The position numbers were made by a program, and so were the translations under genes. From positions 4,898,001 to 4,962,000 of the forward strand of contig NZ_CP022752.1 in assembly GCF_002263515.1 (NCBI RefSeq): a stretch of DNA of 64,000 nucleotides. The letters run 5' to 3'. Origin of the DNA: Actinopolyspora erythraea (GTDB taxonomy: Bacteria > Actinomycetota > Actinomycetes > Mycobacteriales > Pseudonocardiaceae). This document shows positions 18,224 through 26,612 of this stretch, one piece after another (position 1 is the stretch's first letter; each line of letters begins with the position of its first letter). The notes under the pieces were generated by a model, which was not told the DNA's origin, did no database searches, and saw only the letters and a program-made list of their open reading frames with translations.

Positions 18224-18394
18224 CCAGAAATCGTCCATCCGACCCATCTTCCGGTCAGCGGGGAAGACGTTTCCGGTAGGGCTGTCACTCCGAGGCGACC
18301 GCACTCGAACAGCGCTCGATCCGATCGAGTGAACACTATTATTAGTCGGCGTTGACGACGGCCGTTCGCGGCGGCGGTGTGCGAGGCTGCCGAC

Positions 18395-19252
18395 GTGAGT
18401 AAGAGTCCTACCGTTCACCGCAGACGTCTGGGCAGCGAACTCCGCAAGTTGCGTGAGGCCGCGCAGCGGACCCACCGCGAGGTCGCGGCCCACCTGGATT
18501 GCTCACAGGGCAAGATCAGCCAGATCGAACTCGGCCGTGTCCCGGTCCGCACCGCCGACGTCCGGCTCATGGCCGAGTTCTACGGTTCGAGTTCCGAACA
18601 GGTCACCACATTGCTCGAACTGGCCGAGGGGTCCAAGAAGCGCGGCTGGTGGCAGGCCTACCCCAGCACCGCGCGCCGGAACGGTTTCGACACGTACCTG
18701 GGGTTGGAAACGGCCGCCACCGCCCTCAGCACGTTCGGGGCGGATCCGCTCCCGGAGTTACTGCAGACCGAGGAGTACGGTTCCGCGCTGCTGACGACCG
18801 AGCGCAACGCCATAACCGAGGACGAGATCTCGGAGCGGCTCACCGTCACGGCGATCCGGCAGCAGCGGCTGCTGGGCGACCAACCGCTGGAGCTGTACTC
18901 GGTGCTGGACGAGTCCGCGTTGCGGCGCACCGTCGGAGGCCGGCGGGCGATGCGCGCGCAGCTGGAACACCTGGTGCTGATGAGCTACCGACGCAACGTG
19001 ACGGTTCGGGTGCTGCCCTTCGGCAGCGGGGCGCACCCGCTGCTCGGCGACCGGGTGACCGCCTTCTCGTTCCGGGGGACCGGGGACCCGCAGGTGGTGC
19101 ACGTGGGGGACTCCACGAACTCGCGCTTCTGGGAGAAACCGGCCGATACGGCCCCTTACCTGGCGGCTTTCGAGCGGGTGTGCGATCTGGCGCTGTCCCC
19201 GAAGGAGTCGACGATGCTGATCTCGAGTATCGCGGACGAGCACCGCGAGTGA
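18395..19252 (+). CDS. XRE-family regulator with DUF5753 domain
   Basis: 285 residues from the GTG at 18395 (an upstream GTG at 18377 is possible). An N-terminal helix-turn-helix (ELRKLREAAQRTHREVAAHL) is followed by the DUF5753 ligand domain (LLQTEEYGSALL; ESALRRTVGG; VTVRVLPF; FWEKP). Such regulators usually pair with a small DUF397 protein; none is adjacent here, unlike the copy at 52.4 kb. Confidence 0.9.
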   Translation: MSKSPTVHRRRLGSELRKLREAAQRTHREVAAHLDCSQGKISQIELGRVPVRTADVRLMAEFYGSSSEQVTTLLELAEGSKKRGWWQAYPSTARRNGFDTYLGLETAATALSTFGADPLPELLQTEEYGSALLTTERNAITEDEISERLTVTAIRQQRLLGDQPLELYSVLDESALRRTVGGRRAMRAQLEHLVLMSYRRNVTVRVLPFGSGAHPLLGDRVTAFSFRGTGDPQVVHVGDSTNSRFWEKPADTAPYLAAFERVCDLALSPKESTMLISSIADEHRE

Positions 19253-19788
19253 CCCGGGGCCGGGAAAGTTCCGCCCGGCAGGACACCCACTACGTCCACC
19301 GGAAATCCGGACAGGGTCCCAGTACACGTTTCGGAGTGCTCGGCTGTGAACTCAGCGGCTGTCCGGCGCTGCCGTATCCGTTCGGGCAATGACATCTCGC
19401 CGGTGTTCTTCGGCGCTCCCAGCGCCGAAACACCCACTCACGCAGCTCGCACCGCCACGGGTTCTCCCGTGCGGCTCTCGTGAGGAAGGTCCGACGTCGT
19501 GTAGTACCTACCCGATGTCGGGCCTGGCCGCGGCGAGAGCCGTGCGAGAGGTCGCGTCACCCGAACAGCCACGAAACCCAGCCCCAGAAGAACCGGTGGT
19601 GTCCACCACCTGCCGCAGTCGTTCCTACGCGATCTGACCGGAGAACACGTCCCCGGTGCGTGAGTCGGACGCGTCGCGAGGCAGGGCCGCTCCCGCGTGG
19701 ATCGCTACTCACCAGCCGGCCCAACGCGGCAAGGAGCCGACTCACGTGCCGGTAGTCGAGCATCTGAGCCGGGTAACGCCGGGAACTC
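19253..19788. other. Convergent intergenic region with hairpin copy A
   Basis: About 535 bases between the end of the XRE gene and the end of pstB. Apart from the hairpin at 19446-19551 I see no gene. Confidence 0.6.
19446..19551. repeat. Dispersed long hairpin, copy A
   Basis: An outer stem of about 17 positions (around 19464-19480 with 19534-19550; one mismatch and two G-T pairs), an inner 12-bp stem (19488-19499 with 19513-19524) and a GTAG/CTAC tip with a TAC loop. The layout and tip match copy B at 25166-25273, but the inner stem sequence differs by compensating changes. Confidence 0.75.
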
Positions 19789-20565
19789 TCATCCGAAGCG
19801 GCCGGAGATGTAGTCCTCGGTGGCCTTCTGACTCGGGTTGGAGAAGATCTTGCCGGTCTCGCCGATCTCGACCAGCTGACCGGGCTCCCCCACGGCGGGC
19901 AGGTTGAAGAACGCCGTCTGGTCGCTCACCCGCGCGGCCTGCTGCATGTTGTGCGTGACGATGACGATCGTGTAGTCCTTCTTCAGCTCCGCGATGAGGT
20001 CCTCGATCGCCAGCGTCGATATGGGGTCGAGTGCCGAGCAGGGCTCGTCCATCAGCAGCACGTCGGGCTGTACCGCGATGGCCCGGGCGATGCAGAGCCG
20101 CTGCTGCTGTCCACCGGAGAGCCCGCCGCCCGGCTTGTTGAGCCGGTCCTTGACCTCCTCCCAGAGGTTGGCCCCGCGCAGCGAGCGCTCGGTGACCTCC
20201 TCCAGGCGCTTCTTGTCCTTGACGCCAGCCAGCTTCAACCCGGCCACCACGTTGTCCCTGATCGACATGGTGGGGAACGGGTTGGCGCGCTGGAACACCA
20301 TCCCGATGGTGCGGCGGACCTGGACCGGATCGACCCCCGGCGCGTACACGTTCTCCCCGTCGAGCAGCACGCTGCCCTCGACCCTGGAGCCGGGAACCAC
20401 CTCGTGCATCCGGTTCAGCGCGCGCAGCACGGTGGACTTGCCGCAGCCGGAGGGGCCGATGAAGGCGGTGACGCTGCGGGCGTGCACCTGCAGCGTGACG
20501 TCCCGCACCGCGTGGAACTTGTTGTAGTAGAGGTTGAGCTCGTTGATGTCGAGACGTTTGGCCAT
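19789..20565 (-). CDS. pstB: Phosphate ABC transporter ATP-binding protein
   Basis: 258 residues. Walker [10 protein letters not shown] (37-45), signature LSGGQQQR, Walker B VLLMDEP and the switch histidine in IVTHNMQQ are all present. It powers phosphate import through PstC/PstA. It is the last gene of the pstSCAB run, 15 bases after pstA. Confidence 0.97.
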
Positions 20566-20580
20566 GGTTCGGCTACCGCC

Positions 20581-21495
20581 CTACCTGGTCTTTACCGAGA
20601 ACAGTTTGGACAACAGTGTTGCCAGCAGATTGATCAGCATGATCAGCAGGACGAGGGTGAGCGCGGCTCCCCACATCCGGTACTCGCCCGCCTCCGTGGA
20701 GGTCTTGCGCGCCGTGTAGACCGTCAGCGGCAATGAGGCCATCGGCCCGTCGAACAGGTTGAAGTTGATCGCCCGGGAGTAGCCGACGAGGATGAGCAGC
20801 GGCGCGGTCTCCCCCATGATCCTGGCCAGCCCGAGGATGATGCCGGTGATGATGCCGGACAGCGAGGTCGGCAGCACCACCTTCAGGATCGTCTTCCACT
20901 TGGGCACGCCCAGTGCGTAGGAGGCCTCCCGCAGCTCGTCGGGCACGATGGTCAGCATCGTCTCGGTCACCCGCACCACCACCGGCAGCATCAGCAGCAC
21001 CAGCGAGAGCGACACCGCGAAACCACTGCGGTCGAACCCGAACGTGGTGATCCACAGCGCGTAGATGAACAGTCCCGCGACGATGGAGGGCAGCCCGCTG
21101 AGGATGTCCACCATGAACGTGGTGGTCCGGGCCAGCTTGGAGTTCCTGCCGTACTCGATGAGGAAGATGCCGACCGTCACCCCGAGCGGAACCGCGATCA
21201 CGGCGCAGATGAGCGTCTGTTCCAGGGTGCCCACCAGCGCGTGGTAGATCCCGCCACCGAAGTCGTTCGGCAGCAGCCCGTAGAACGAGTGGGTCCACCA
21301 CTCGGTGCTGAGCATGGGCATCAGCCCGCGTCGCACCAGGGTGAACAGCACCCACAGCAGTGGGATGACCGCGACCACGAACGCGAGGGCGAACAGCACC
21401 GTGGCGGTGTGGTTCTTGATCCTGCGCCCCAGGCCGAGGTGCTGGAAGGCGGGGGCGCTCGCGGGCCGCTCGATGTCGGCGGTGTCGGTTCTCAT
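20581..21495 (-). CDS. pstA: Phosphate ABC transporter permease PstA
   Basis: 304 residues with six membrane segments and the EAA loop that contacts PstB (ELREASYALGVPKWKTILKV). Its start overlaps the pstC stop (ATGA), so the two permeases are coupled. Confidence 0.96.
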   Translation of the reverse strand: MRTDTADIERPASAPAFQHLGLGRRIKNHTATVLFALAFVVAVIPLLWVLFTLVRRGLMPMLSTEWWTHSFYGLLPNDFGGGIYHALVGTLEQTLICAVIAVPLGVTVGIFLIEYGRNSKLARTTTFMVDILSGLPSIVAGLFIYALWITTFGFDRSGFAVSLSLVLLMLPVVVRVTETMLTIVPDELREASYALGVPKWKTILKVVLPTSLSGIITGIILGLARIMGETAPLLILVGYSRAINFNLFDGPMASLPLTVYTARKTSTEAGEYRMWGAALTLVLLIMLINLLATLLSKLFSVKTR

Positions 21496-22553
21496 TCCTT
21501 CCCCTTAGCGCTGCCGCTCTCGATCCAGCGGGCGATCGCGTTGACGGCGAAGGTGCTGATGAACAGCACCAGTCCGGCCGCGATGTAGGCACCGACGGTG
21601 AGGTTGTTGTTGAACTCGGCGGACCCGAGGGCGATCCGCGAGGCGAAGGTGGCACCGGCGTCGAAGATGCTGTAGTGCGGCCCCTCGAAGGTGTAGCTGA
21701 GGATGACGGTCAGCGCGACGGTCTCGCCGAGCGCCCTGCCGAGGCCGAGCATCGCGCCCCCGACGAACCCGCTGCGCCCGAACGGCCAGACGGTGGTGCG
21801 CACCACTTCCCACTTGGTCGCGCCGAGCGCCAGGGCTCCCTCGATCTGCACCGCCGGGGTCCGTGCGAACACCTCGCGGGCGACGCCGGTGATGATCGGC
21901 AGGATCATCACGGCGAGCACGATGCCCGCCGTGAAGACGTTGGAACCGCTGCCCGCGGGCACGTTGCCGTCGGCGAAGATCGGTATCCAGCCGAGGGTCT
22001 CGTTGAGCCGGATCGCGACCGGTTTGAGCACCGGTGCCAGTACCAGCGCGCCCCAGAGGCCGTAGATCACGGAGGGCACGGCGGCGAGCAGGTCCACCAC
22101 GTAGGCGAACGGACGGGCCAGCACCCTGGGGGCGTACTGGGTGAGGAACAGCGCGATCCCGCCCGCCACGGGCATCGCGAGGATGAGCGCCACCAGCGAG
22201 CTCGCGACCGTGATCCAGGCGAGATCGATGATGCCGAAGGCCATGTGCTCCGGATCGCCGGTCCTCCACTCCCCGGACAGCAGGAAGTTGGCCTCGTTGG
22301 CGTGCAACGCGGGGATGGCCCGAACGAGCAGGAACAGCCCGATGGCCGCGATGATGGCGACCACGAAGATCCCGGATCCGGTTGCCACGCTCTTGAACAC
22401 CCGATCGCCGAGGCGGACCACCTTCTTCTCGCCCGGTTCGCTCGGCGGGGTCACCGGCTCCTCCGGCACCGGCGTTTCCGGGGGTTCCACGAGGGTGTTC
22501 CCCGTCTCGTCCGGCGGTGCGGAGCGCCACTCGGAGTTCGTCGACTCGGTCAC
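21492..22553 (-). CDS. pstC: Phosphate ABC transporter permease PstC
   Basis: 353 residues. A long Pro/Glu-rich cytoplasmic N-terminus (about 60 residues) precedes six membrane segments. The coupling loop reads EGALALGATKWEVVRTT. The GTG at 22553 is the assigned start. It forms the translocation path with PstA. Confidence 0.95.
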   Translation of the reverse strand: MTESTNSEWRSAPPDETGNTLVEPPETPVPEEPVTPPSEPGEKKVVRLGDRVFKSVATGSGIFVVAIIAAIGLFLLVRAIPALHANEANFLLSGEWRTGDPEHMAFGIIDLAWITVASSLVALILAMPVAGGIALFLTQYAPRVLARPFAYVVDLLAAVPSVIYGLWGALVLAPVLKPVAIRLNETLGWIPIFADGNVPAGSGSNVFTAGIVLAVMILPIITGVAREVFARTPAVQIEGALALGATKWEVVRTTVWPFGRSGFVGGAMLGLGRALGETVALTVILSYTFEGPHYSIFDAGATFASRIALGSAEFNNNLTVGAYIAAGLVLFISTFAVNAIARWIESGSAKGKE

Positions 22554-22682
22554 CGTTGTTCGCGACCTCTCAGTTGCCGGAAGTTCCCGGTAGTGCTCGG
22601 GTGCCGCGGCTGCCGCGCGGAACGAACACGCACTCCTCCGGGAGGACGTCGGTTGGGGACACCTGGCCCGGCACGACCGGGC

Positions 22683-23795
22683 TCAGGTCCGGATCGCCTC
22701 GATCGCGTCGAGGACCCTCTCACGGAATTTCGGAGGAAGCGGCACGTATCCCGCCTGCTCCAGGTTCTCCTCGCCCGCGTGGGCGGCGACGCGCAGCGCG
22801 GCGGTCACCGACTGGGCCGTCTGCTCGTCGTATCCCGCCGAGCACACGACCTCGTAGGTGGCCAGCACCAGCGGGTAGACGCCGGGGGAATCGTTGCCGT
22901 AGATCGACTCCAGGTTCAGCCGGAGGTCGTGGCCGCTACCGGCTATCTCGGCACCGTCGATGGCCTTGCCCGCCGACCCGCTGGTCAGTTCGACGGGGCC
23001 GTTACCGCTGTCGATGGCGGCGATGCCCAGGCCCGCGTTCTTCGGGAAGGCCCAGGCGGCGTAGGTGATCCCGCCCTCGGTCTGTTCGACCGAGGAGGTC
23101 ACACCGTCGGTGCCCGCCCTGCCCTGGCCGACACCGGAGCCGGGGCGGAACGTCTTGCCCGCTCCCTTCCACAGGCCGTCGGTGGCGATGGACAGGTACT
23201 CCTGGAAGTTCGCCGAGGTGCCGGACTCGTCGGAGCGGTAGAACGGGACGATCTCGATGCCCGGCAGCTCGGTTCCCGGGTTGAGCCGCTGGATGGCGGG
23301 ATCGTTCCACCTGGTGATCTCGCCCTGGTAGATCCCGGTGATCGCCTCGGGGCTGAGCGTGAGGTCGTCGACCCCCGGGATGTTGTAGGTGATCGCCAGT
23401 GGACCGAACACCATGGGGATGTTCCAGGCCGGGTTCCCGCCGCAGCGCTCCGCGGCCTTCTCGGCCTCGGGGCCGCTCAGTGCCTCGTCGGACCCGGCGA
23501 GATCGACCTGTCCTGCGGTGAACGCGGAGATCCCCTTGCCGGAGCCGGAGGCGGTGTAGTTGAGCTGCCTGCCCTGGCACTTGACCCCGAAGTCCCTGGC
23601 GAAGACGTCCATGGCGTTCTTCTGCGCGGAGGATCCCTCGGCCGCCACGGAGGCGTCCCCGCAGTCGACCTCGAGTTGTCGCAGTTCGGAGTTCAGATCG
23701 GCCGTGGTGACGTTGCGATCGGTTCCGCAGGCGCTCAGCGCGAGAACACCCACCGCGAGACACCCGAGCGCGATCCTGTGCCGCCCGAATTGCAC
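22683..23795 (-). CDS. pstS: Phosphate-binding lipoprotein PstS
   Basis: 370 residues. The GTG at 23795 has TTGGAGGAA before it. A signal peptide ends at the lipobox LSAC. Ligand-site motifs of PstS are present: SGSGKGISAFTAG, DLAGSDEAL, IYQGEITRWNDP and RSDESGTS. It captures phosphate outside the membrane for PstCAB. A PHO box about 90 bases upstream predicts induction under phosphate limitation. Confidence 0.96.
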   Translation of the reverse strand: MQFGRHRIALGCLAVGVLALSACGTDRNVTTADLNSELRQLEVDCGDASVAAEGSSAQKNAMDVFARDFGVKCQGRQLNYTASGSGKGISAFTAGQVDLAGSDEALSGPEAEKAAERCGGNPAWNIPMVFGPLAITYNIPGVDDLTLSPEAITGIYQGEITRWNDPAIQRLNPGTELPGIEIVPFYRSDESGTSANFQEYLSIATDGLWKGAGKTFRPGSGVGQGRAGTDGVTSSVEQTEGGITYAAWAFPKNAGLGIAAIDSGNGPVELTSGSAGKAIDGAEIAGSGHDLRLNLESIYGNDSPGVYPLVLATYEVVCSAGYDEQTAQSVTAALRVAAHAGEENLEQAGYVPLPPKFRERVLDAIEAIRT

Positions 23796-23883
23796 GTCGT
23801 TCCTCCAAGGCAACGGAGTTGACGGCGTGTGCCGTTCCGAGGGCGACCCTAAGGCGACCGGGTAGCCATCGACCGCCATCCAG

Positions 23884-23900
23884 GTGAACAAAAAGTGAAC
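23884..23900 (-). promoter_or_regulatory. PHO box upstream of pstS
   Basis: On the minus strand GTTCAC occurs twice at 11-base spacing (GTTCACTTTTTGTTCACC), the direct repeat bound by PhoP in actinomycetes. It lies about 90 bases before the pstS start. Confidence 0.85.
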
Positions 23901-24001
23901 ACGGCACGCTAAGTAAGCAAGGACACAGCTGGGCGGATGAACGAACCCGAAGCTCGCTCACCCGCCCGGCATTCCCGGACACCCTGAGTGTTCGCCGCCG
24001 A

Positions 24002-24964
24002 TCAGCGGCCGAACTGCGCGTCGACGTCCCAGCGCTCGAAGCCCAGACGGCGGTAGACGCTGACGGCGGGACCGTTGTCCGCCTCCACGTAGAGCATCAC
24101 GCGGGGACAACCGACACCGCGCAGGTACCGCAGCCCGGCCAGGGTCAACGCACGACCGAGACCACTACCCTGCGTGTTCGGATCCACGCCGACCACGTAG
24201 ACCTCGCCGGTGCCGTCCGGATGAATCTTGGTCCAGTGGAAACCGAGCAACCGGTCCGCACTGTCGACGGCGAGCAGGAAACCCGCCGGGTCGAACCAGT
24301 CCAGGTCCTCCTTCTCGCGCAGCTCGGCCTCGGTCATCCCGCCCTGCTCGGGGTGCCAGGAGAACGCGAGGTGGTTGACCCGGACCAGCTCCGGCTCGTC
24401 CTCACCCACCCGGAAACCGCGTATCGTGACTCCCTCGGGCAGCACGGGCTCGTCGAGCTCGTCACCGGTGAACTCACGGCCCATCCGCCACAACTCCCGG
24501 ACCCGGGTGAACCCGAACCGTTCCGCCAGCCGCACCGCACCGCCGAGCAGGCCGTGCGACCAGACCCGCAGCCGCCCCGAGTCCTCCTCATCGGATTCGG
24601 CGAGCGTCTCGGAACGTTCGAGCAACGCGCGGAGCAGCTGGGACCCCACCCCGTTCCCCCGGTAGCGGGGGTGTACCGCGAGCTCGGCCACCAGCGGCCG
24701 CCCCTCGGGCTCCCCCTCGGTGTCCAGGTGGGCGTAACCCGCCAGTTCACCACCGTCGGCACGCACCACGAAGTGCTCCGAACCACCGACGTCGGCCTGC
24801 ACCGGCTCGATCTGTTCACTCACTCCCCGGTGGGCACGCAACCGCATGGCCACGTGCTCTCCGGCGGGAGCCACACCGTCCACTCGTTCGGCTTCGGCAA
24901 GCAGCTCGAAGACCTCGGCGGTCTCGGCCTCGTCCAGCCCGTTTCGCCACGTCAGATGCACCAC
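24002..24964 (-). CDS. mshD: Mycothiol synthase MshD
   Basis: 320 residues made of two GNAT acetyltransferase domains. The first has AELAVHPRYRGNGVGSQLL and the second, catalytic one has VYVVGVDPNTQGSGLGRAL and FHWTKIHPDGTGE. It acetylates Cys-GlcN-Ins, the last step of mycothiol synthesis. Two GTG codons (24964, 24961) are the likely starts; no strong ribosome site decides between them. The inositol for mycothiol comes from the Ino1 pathway at 58 kb. Confidence 0.93.
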   Translation of the reverse strand: MVHLTWRNGLDEAETAEVFELLAEAERVDGVAPAGEHVAMRLRAHRGVSEQIEPVQADVGGSEHFVVRADGGELAGYAHLDTEGEPEGRPLVAELAVHPRYRGNGVGSQLLRALLERSETLAESDEEDSGRLRVWSHGLLGGAVRLAERFGFTRVRELWRMGREFTGDELDEPVLPEGVTIRGFRVGEDEPELVRVNHLAFSWHPEQGGMTEAELREKEDLDWFDPAGFLLAVDSADRLLGFHWTKIHPDGTGEVYVVGVDPNTQGSGLGRALTLAGLRYLRGVGCPRVMLYVEADNGPAVSVYRRLGFERWDVDAQFGR

Positions 24965-25165
24965 ACCGCAGAGATTACCGATGTTCGCCCCCCGTTTGTT
25001 GGCCCTGCTCCGTCCCGCGACTAAGAAACCGGAGAGACCATCGTCACGAACACCAGAGTCGCGGCGAGTGAGACGACGACCGCAGCGCGCCGCGCCGAGC
25101 CCTAGAACACACCCACGAAATCGCCGGGCCGCTGAGACGCGGGGCCGAACTCCCACCACCCCGCA

Positions 25166-25273
25166 CTCGGCACCGCCGCGAGTTCTCTCGTACGGCTCTC
25201 GCGAGGACGCCGGAGACGTTGTGTAGGTCGCTACCCGATGTCTCCGGCCCCGGAGCGAGAGCCGTACGAGAGG
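25166..25273. repeat. Dispersed long hairpin, copy B
   Basis: A perfect 17-bp outer stem (25185-25201 with 25256-25272), an inner 13-bp stem (25209-25221 with 25236-25248, with G-T pairs) and a GTAG/CTAC tip with a GTCG loop. It lies in the divergent gap between mshD and the permease gene, about 55 bases before the permease start. Confidence 0.8.
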
Positions 25274-25328
25274 TTCCGCCAAGCGACCAACCAGGCAACA
25301 CAAGCCCATCACCCAAAGGAAAGTGGTC

Positions 25329-26612
25329 ATGCGTCTGGAAGCCCGCCTCGGCACCGCCGACGCCGTGACGATCGGATTGAGTTCGATGATCGGCGCCGGA
25401 CTGTTCGCGGCGTTCGCCCCGGCGGCGTCGCGGGCGGGCTGGAACCTCGTGCCCGCACTGCTGCTGGCCGCGTTGGTGGCGTTCTGCAACGCCACCAGCT
25501 CGGCCGCCCTGGCCGCGCGCCACCCCGCGGCGGGTGGTGCCTACGTCTACGGACGCGAACGGCTCGGGCCGAACTGGGGTTACCTGGCGGGCTGGGGCTT
25601 CGTCACGGGCAAGACCGCCTCGTGCGCCGCGATGGCGCTGACGGCCGCCAACTACCTGGTTCCCGAGCACCCGCACGTCGCCGCCGTCGTGTTCGTGCTG
25701 CTGCTGACCGGGACCAACTACGTGGGAATCACCCGGACGGCACGACTGGCCAGGATGCTGCTGGGAGTCACCCTCACCGGGGTGGCGGTGGCGCTGGTGG
25801 CGATCTGGTTCCCGGACCGGACCCCACCGCTCCTCCCCGGCACCACGAACCTCCCGCGGGGAACCGAACTCCGCTGGGGCGGGCTGTGGGGAATCACCGG
25901 GGCCGCGGGGCTGCTGTTCTTCGCCTTCGCCGGATACGCGCGGATAGCCACTCTCGGCGAAGAGGTCCGCGCCCCGGAACGGACCATCCCGCGGGCCGTC
26001 CCGATCGCGCTGGGCGCGGTGGTGGTGCTGTACCTGGTGGTCGGCGTGACGCTGCTCGGAGCGCTGGGCCCCGCCGAGCTGGCGAGGTCCACCGCCCCGC
26101 TGGCCGAGGCCGTGCGCGGCGGACCGCTCCCCTGGTTGGCCCCCGCCGCGCGGCTGGCGGCGGGGACGGCCGCGCTGGGCGCGCTGCTGGCGCTGCTGGC
26201 GGGCGTGGGCAGGACCGCGCTGGCGATGGCACGCGAGCGGGACCTGCCGCGTTGGCTGAACCGGGTTCACCCCAGGTTCGGCACCCCGCACCACGCGGAA
26301 CTCGGGGTCGCGGCCGTGGTGGCGGTACTGGTCCTGGCCGGTGACCTGCGGTCGGTCATCGGCTTCTCCTCGTTCGGGGTGCTGGTCTACTACGCCGTCG
26401 CCAACGCGGCCGCGTGGCGCCTGCCCCGGGACCATCGGTGGTTCCCCCGCGCGCTCCCGGCGGCGGGCCTACTGGGGTGCGCTGTGCTCGCGTTCAGCCT
26501 GCCGTGGCAGGCCGTGGTCGCCGGAGTCGGCTGCTTCCTCGTCGGCGCGCTGTTCCGCCTCCAGCGGAAACTCCTGCCCAACCCGCTGGGCGGCCGAGTC
26601 GGCCCGTCGTGA
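25329..26612 (+). CDS. APC-family amino-acid permease
   Basis: 427 residues, about 12 membrane segments. The APC signature is at the start ([20 protein letters not shown]) and the central [22 protein letters not shown] loop is present. The ATG at 25329 is chosen because AAAGGA ends 8 bases before it. It is a predicted uptake system for an amino acid or amine. Its last 144 bases overlap glnR on the other strand, which suggests a nitrogen link. Confidence 0.9.

Follow-up and report, generated by a model that had tools for sequence, protein, structure and literature searches.

Most palindromic repeats of bacteria are short, and the usual explanation for them invokes RAYT transposases. ERIC, Correia/NEMIS and similar elements are intergenic imperfect palindromes of 100–160 bp that occur in many bacterial copies; to our knowledge, they are not characterised by covariation, a strand preference or conservation as single copies. 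Integron attC sites keep their structure while their sequence varies, fold as one strand and lie just behind a stop codon, and an intrinsic terminator is a G+C-rich stem followed by a U-run, just behind a gene. Here, we describe a family of long hairpins, two of which (copies A and B, termed type 1) lie in a 64,000-nucleotide stretch of the chromosome of Actinopolyspora erythraea (positions 4,898,001–4,962,000 of NZ_CP022752.1; hereafter the window). Across this family, the pairing fold is conserved while the letters change, and the + strand of the window, antisense to the gene preceding the element, folds best. We tentatively propose a dispersed gene-end element kept for its strand-specific fold, which would probably serve as a transcription boundary.

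By general description and not by sequence comparison, the hairpins resemble ERIC and Correia/NEMIS elements in size class, in being intergenic imperfect palindromes and in their many copies. With attC sites, likewise as generally described, they share a kept structure with varying sequence, a fold on one strand and a position at stop codons; unlike attC sites, they lie behind unrelated chromosomal genes and not in cassette arrays, although attC core sites were not searched for. They are also hairpins just behind genes, as intrinsic terminators are, but they lack a U-run, share a long sequence and fold most strongly antisense to the nearer gene.

Repetitive extragenic palindromes (REPs) are GTAG/CGTC-tagged palindromic repeats, which PMC3733652 describes as intergenic and abundant, lying mostly downstream of genes and in convergent or tandem gaps, and as suspected of being both mobile and functional. 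The hairpin family shares these habits, with many intergenic copies behind genes. However, the palindrome of REPs measures 20–40 bp compared with a core of approximately 105 nt here, and the GTAG/CGTC tag ends a REP, whereas here GTAG forms a paired tip that changes among genera. Furthermore, the stems of this family are rewritten around fixed loops, and the copies keep a fixed register to stop codons in one orientation. The Y1 transposase domain (PF01797) had no match in genomes G002 and G008, each with at least 90 copies, although a transposase too diverged to match may be present. Two PF01797 genes were observed in the genome of the window, each beside a TnpB-like frame (L031 and L032, IS605-type elements). 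A RAYT or IS200-IS605 transposase as the mover was rejected on these grounds, for a search outside which genomes G021–G023 lay. Because length, end tag and transposase all disagreed, we did not file the hairpins as REPs; the family is REP-like in habit but is not a GTAG/RAYT REP. No description of this hairpin family was found in the literature covered, which comprised titles and the beginnings of abstracts, with subscription papers mostly outside its scope.

Structure of the Two Hairpins

The two copies and their flanks, the latter delimited by how far each copy matched a profile of own-genome copies in gene-sense orientation, are as follows.

19446..19551, + strand: core of copy A, type-1 hairpin, on the strand folding best; 3' of pstB and antisense to it, with a type-2 hairpin between
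19376..19591, − strand: copy A with its conserved flanks
25166..25273, + strand: core of copy B, type-1 hairpin, between divergent genes
25124..25309, − strand: copy B with its conserved flanks

Both hairpins were found where the original prediction had placed them, with the outer stem, the inner stem and the GTAG/CTAC tip that it described. The unit is a two-storey hairpin of approximately 105 nt with conserved internal loops and with stems that are exchanged while pairing is kept. On the + strand, its base has GTT facing GTT (GCGGGTTCTC ... GAGGTTCCGC); above this follow an outer stem of 17–18 pairs, which in Actinopolyspora contains a tandem U.G/G.U step, a middle loop GAGGAC ... CCCGCA, the inner stem and the paired tip. 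Inner stems fall into a few discrete types across the family.

As RNA, the + strand of copy A (19436–19561) folded at −73.4 kcal/mol (z score −5.3) and that of copy B (25156–25283) at −79.3 kcal/mol (z score −7.8), and none of 200 shuffles was as good in either case. The − strand folds were weaker, with z scores of −2.5 for copy A (2 of 200 shuffles as good) and −4.6 for copy B (0 of 200). In the minimum-energy fold of copy A, the base partly favours a small side hairpin. In agreement with the earlier statement that no known RNA family was recognised, Rfam 15 at curated thresholds gave a single match in the window, a tRNA elsewhere, and none at the hairpins; at E values up to 10, the region 19200–19800 gave five matches far below threshold, to four microRNA models and to mascRNA-menRNA.

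Family Size and Taxonomic Range

A nucleotide search with copy B revealed relatives throughout the 5.24-Mb chromosome; the best 40 of 180 candidates were scored, and all matched. A covariance model (R1) was then built from 30 own-genome copies (alignment A1, with L007 omitted). R1 gave 145 matches at E ≤ 10 in this genome, from which five with E > 0.001 and one opposite-strand duplicate were removed; the resulting 139 copies are a lower bound, as the best 150 of 8842 candidates were scored. Eight of the nine other Actinopolyspora genomes contained at least 90 copies by R1, and the ninth (G006, 4.2 Mb) only two type-1 copies (L042 and L056). G006 and its eight high-copy congeners thus offer a natural comparison for finding a mover or a partner.

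Beyond Actinopolyspora, 15 genomes represented further genera of its GTDB family (f1); R1 had matches in 4 of them (12, 36, 79 and 7 copies) and none in the other 11, nor in 16 genomes of other families. Searches of single genomes gave 116 copies in G022 and 36 in G021. With a second model (R2), 19 of 298 genomes of the order, belonging to 7 of 76 genera, had a match at E ≤ 1e-6; under strict filters and with 12 candidates scored per genome, none of the 298 showed a match outside f1. Family f1 would be Pseudonocardiaceae in the wide sense; NCBI taxonomy places Actinopolyspora in a family and an order of its own. Among the matches listed in a pattern scan were Saccharopolyspora species, Amycolatopsis bartoniae, Sciscionella sediminilitoris, Saccharomonospora sp. 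CUA-673 and Halopolyspora algeriensis; a Planotetraspora match (L324) showed no hairpin on inspection and was taken as chance. Where present in f1 genera other than Actinopolyspora, the hairpin occurred in 1 to 116 copies per genome, and the seven genomes of genus g34 held 1–4 each (150 candidates scored per genome). That the family is dispersed is shown by its copy number, which is high and varies among genomes. Thus, the covariance-model search of related genomes that had been proposed as a check revealed many copies, and covariation among them.

Covariation of the Stems

We aligned 57 selected loci from five genera (alignment A3: 22 from G022, 15 from G021, 2 each from G014 and G023, and 16 from Actinopolyspora). 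The loops were near-constant across these genera, which suggests a protein partner, and the outer and inner stem sequences varied among genera and even within one genome. For example, the 30 copies examined in G022 fell into two main stem families, nearly all fully paired. In A3, 96.6% of cells were paired and 20 of 31 pairs showed two-sided changes, with fewer change events than cells because copies within one genome are related. The covariation score was 0.452, compared with 0.126 ± 0.008 after shuffling (0 of 500 as high) and 0.072–0.099 when the structure was slid. A3 was fitted to the model and so leans toward structure, against which the slid control and the single-site test below are the guards. 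In other genera, the tip reads, for example, GTAT/ATAC or GAAT/ATTC, compared with GTAG/CTAC in the window; because of this difference, a conserved GTAG signal was rejected.

The single-site test used genus g34, in which five species carry a copy at the same site behind a gene that we take to be gatB. The five rows align without gaps. When the structure written from the G070 sequence was applied to them, 97.9% of cells were paired and 7 of 29 pairs showed two-sided changes, a number reached by 5 of 500 shuffles; the covariation score of 0.255 was reached by none, and the number of further pair types was not above shuffles (168 of 500). All three unpaired cells belong to the copy of G307, which is decaying. 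In G070, G061 and G203, the gatB-site copy is the only one, with no second at E ≤ 0.001, so exchange between copies cannot explain the compensation at this site. Because the fold is kept while the letters change, the shape itself probably does a job. The orthologous copies of two g34 species (L426 and L428) contain an extra tip insert of approximately 55 nt, itself hairpin-forming in appearance.

Strand Preference of the Fold

Were the symmetry of DNA the governing factor, one would expect as many G-U as A-C mismatches. In A3, with near-fixed G-U columns excluded, we counted 75 G-U against 10 A-C, which identifies the + strand of the window as the folding strand. Arm-by-arm counts, restricted to copies in which the arm anchors were found (30 of 30 in G022, 24 of 30 in G021 and 75 of 139 in the own genome), gave 15 against 0, 26 against 9 and 116 against 68, respectively; the last A-C count is inflated by two positions with frequent C-A. 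Consistently, the + strand fold was the more stable in 115 of 139 own copies, 26 of 30 in G022 and 28 of 30 in G021.

Position Relative to Genes

The genes and the second hairpin next to copies A and B are as follows.

18377..19252, + strand: HTH/DUF5753 regulator gene, convergent neighbour of copy A
19649..19752, strand not assigned: type-2 hairpin of a second repeat family, between pstB and copy A
19789..20565, − strand: ABC transporter ATPase, named pstB because of its neighbours, with the type-2 hairpin and copy A behind its stop
24002..24964, − strand: GNAT acetyltransferase gene, divergent neighbour on the left of copy B
25323..26612, + strand: amino-acid permease gene, divergent neighbour on the right of copy B

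Copy A thus lies between convergent and copy B between divergent genes, as predicted, and from this pair it had been argued that a single cis-regulatory role is unlikely. The whole set does not bear this out. We called genes with a purpose-made caller based on G+C content at third codon positions on approximately 963 kb of own-genome sequence, and one of the 139 copies, without a classified context, was dropped. None of the 138 copies overlapped a called gene by more than 20 nt, and 117 lay in one orientation behind the stop of an antisense gene on the 3' side of the element, 63 between convergent and 54 between tandem genes. The remaining contexts held 16 and 5 copies, the divergent kind being the one with 5. 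Importantly, 102 of the 138 copies were 20–50 nt from the antisense stop, compared with 11.9 ± 3.3 expected (maximum 24 in 2000 trials) when the position and orientation of copies were randomised within the same gaps. The distance to the gene on the other side was spread, mostly over 60–400 nt. Similar positions were observed in G022 (25 of 30 copies behind a gene, 16 of them at 20–50 nt) and in G021 (26 of 30, with 19 at this distance). Several copies farther from the stop have an intervening type-2 hairpin, as copy A has behind pstB. A terminator-like stem with a T-run lies between the type-2 hairpin and copy A (19594–19610, − strand, in the reading direction of pstB).

Turnover and Block Exchange

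We compared approximately 746 kb of the own genome (G000) with G008, which has diverged by approximately 5%, using a sequence profile built from 110 of the 139 own copies. Most copies were matched by one at the orthologous position. Among 10 orthologous pairs that were aligned, 3 (671344, copy A and copy B) had the inner block switched on both arms; because the sequence next to copies A and B differs too, a larger segment may have been exchanged there. One-arm hybrids with a broken pair were observed in 4 of 30 A1 rows (L019, L021, L028 and L030). The original prediction had read the inner stems of A and B as compensating base changes. The two stems do differ and yet pair; however, given few discrete inner types, block switching and one-arm hybrids, the difference is best read as a block exchange more than as single compensations. 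In a comparison with L095 and L094, the 3' flank of copy B (25274–25345) matches that of the more distant G004 and not that of the nearest relative G008, which is a sign of interspecies recombination at that gap.

Copies truncated at the tip made up 9 of 160 own and 5 of 38 G008 profile matches, where one own/G008 pair probably represents one event and the own set was taken around full copies. These kept the stop-proximal arm and ended at profile positions 99–109, whereas reciprocal truncations starting at positions 90–112 were absent from the same matches. Because four sites (639575, 676704, 556487 and 5011231) have a full copy in one of the two species and a copy truncated at the tip in the other, the truncations look like deletions that started at the tip; a possible fifth site (5004826) is ambiguous. 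A clean insertion boundary was sought at a copy specific to G008 (C19:181114) and was rejected, as the own genome has unrelated filler there. The sites compared with G008 thus comprised truncations or unrelated filler, with no readable target-site duplication.

Replication and Chromosome Layout

Nucleotide skew places the origin near coordinate 0. Elements pointed toward the origin in 94 of 139 own copies, in 64 of the best 80 of the 116 copies of G022 and in 34 of 36 copies of G021. Between convergent genes, whose orientation favours neither direction, the element followed the leading-strand gene in ratios of 39:24 (own), 14:2 (G022) and 15:1 (G021). Among own copies behind genes, the bias barely exceeded gene orientation (82 of 117 vs. 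471 of 769 genes, p = 0.06). Gene orientation as the whole cause is thus plausible in the own genome, but it fails for the convergent pairs of G021 and G022. None of the 139 own copies lay between 1.478 and 2.709 Mb. The replication bias and the breakage at the tip favour some involvement of DNA; extruded hairpins might, for example, be cleaved, which would purge the more stable orientation from the lagging-strand template.

Proposed Function and Alternative Explanations

The family is best explained as non-coding structured gene-end elements of Actinopolyspora, Saccharopolyspora and related genera. Single sites retain the fold, on one strand and in register with gene ends; we proposed that the simplest function would be a boundary on the 3' side of genes, which would act once the antisense strand is synthesised or becomes exposed. 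Copies would spread by a route that needs no Y1/RAYT transposase today and would be retained at sites where they delimit a gene on its 3' side, with the folded strand forming a strand-specific roadblock there. The hairpin of the nascent RNA would halt or destabilise transcription entering the gene from its 3' side, and the 3' untranslated region of the gene itself would carry the complementary, weaker hairpin. According to PMC3610266, antisense transcription is enriched at gene 3' ends in Saccharopolyspora erythraea. For this reason, and because single copies are held in place, we favoured an RNA roadblock, itself a tentative choice, over a role of single-stranded DNA, which we consider somewhat less likely. 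It is conceivable, though rather doubtful, that the hairpins represent a new class of gene-boundary elements with fixed loops, exchangeable stems, a stop-codon register and an antisense-strand fold, aligned with replication, read by a dedicated protein, and capable both of multiplying to well over 100 copies and of being kept as a single functional copy.

Several observations weigh against a transcription boundary made by RNA. The 54 copies between tandem genes have no + strand gene reading into them, and copy B itself sits between divergent genes. No U-run typical of terminators is found near either hairpin and no terminator-like site at copy B; near copy A, the only such sites are two overlapping ones, at 19594–19610 on the − strand and outside the hairpin. 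At least one copy is dispensable because a decayed ortholog exists in G307, and a pure RNA role leaves the replication bias unexplained. That bias, together with the high and variable copy number, folding on one strand and breakpoints at the tip, would fit the main rival explanation, a substrate of mobility. In this view, the hairpin would be a non-autonomous element moved by a recombinase or transposase that recognises its folded single DNA strand, in the way that RAYTs recognise REPs; its structure would then persist because only folded copies move, and the gene-end position would reflect target choice and tolerance. The original prediction had offered selection for structure or a mobile palindrome, and both halves found support, in the strong covariation and in the high, variable copy number. 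However, the single copies of g34 have stayed at their site and show compensation, with nothing there to be mobilised, G002 and G008 maintain their copies with no Y1 match, and no clean empty site or duplication was found at the sites compared with G008; we regard mobility as the explanation of the structure as unlikely.

Upkeep by mutation without function is improbable. Arms rewritten from each other by template switching or quasi-palindrome correction, together with gene conversion between copies, could produce the inner blocks switched on both arms between G000 and G008 and the hybrids among the A1 rows, but would yield Watson-Crick pairs without strand preference, against the 75 G-U and 10 A-C observed. 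Such repair would also not protect the loops, which are the most conserved part, and three g34 genomes have no second copy from which gene conversion could draw. The copy-free gap, which would mean avoidance of the terminus side, and the orientation of copies relative to the origin might point to a chromosome-organising or replication-linked signal; this is quite improbable, as the own-genome bias behind genes barely exceeds gene orientation, the gap may be an accessory part of the chromosome, and g34 genomes live with 1–4 copies. Finally, a hairpin 20–50 nt behind stop codons recalls the ordinary terminator of an upstream gene. The lack of a U-run, more than 100 bases of sequence common to unrelated sites, loops conserved across genera despite different stems, and a fold that favours the antisense strand make this very unlikely.

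In the proposed gene-end element, a long repeat family with rewritten stems combines upkeep of the fold, strand preference, a set stop-codon distance and donor-free compensation at a single-copy site. Because of this combination, the function of interspersed palindromes beyond parasitism becomes directly testable in culturable relatives such as Saccharopolyspora.

Other Intergenic Palindromes

The stems of the type-2 hairpin are unrelated to those of type 1; its tip is of the GTAG type, and its + strand shares the tandem U.G/G.U step. It was also observed in the orthologous gaps of G001, G005 and G007, and it had 39 matches in the approximately 963 kb of own sequence. Of the 34 full matches, 29 were behind a gene, 15 of these about 20–35 nt from the stop. 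In addition, a small palindrome around CGATTTCTCGCGAAATCG recurs in intergenic gaps of the genus (L145, L175 and others), often near type-1 copies.

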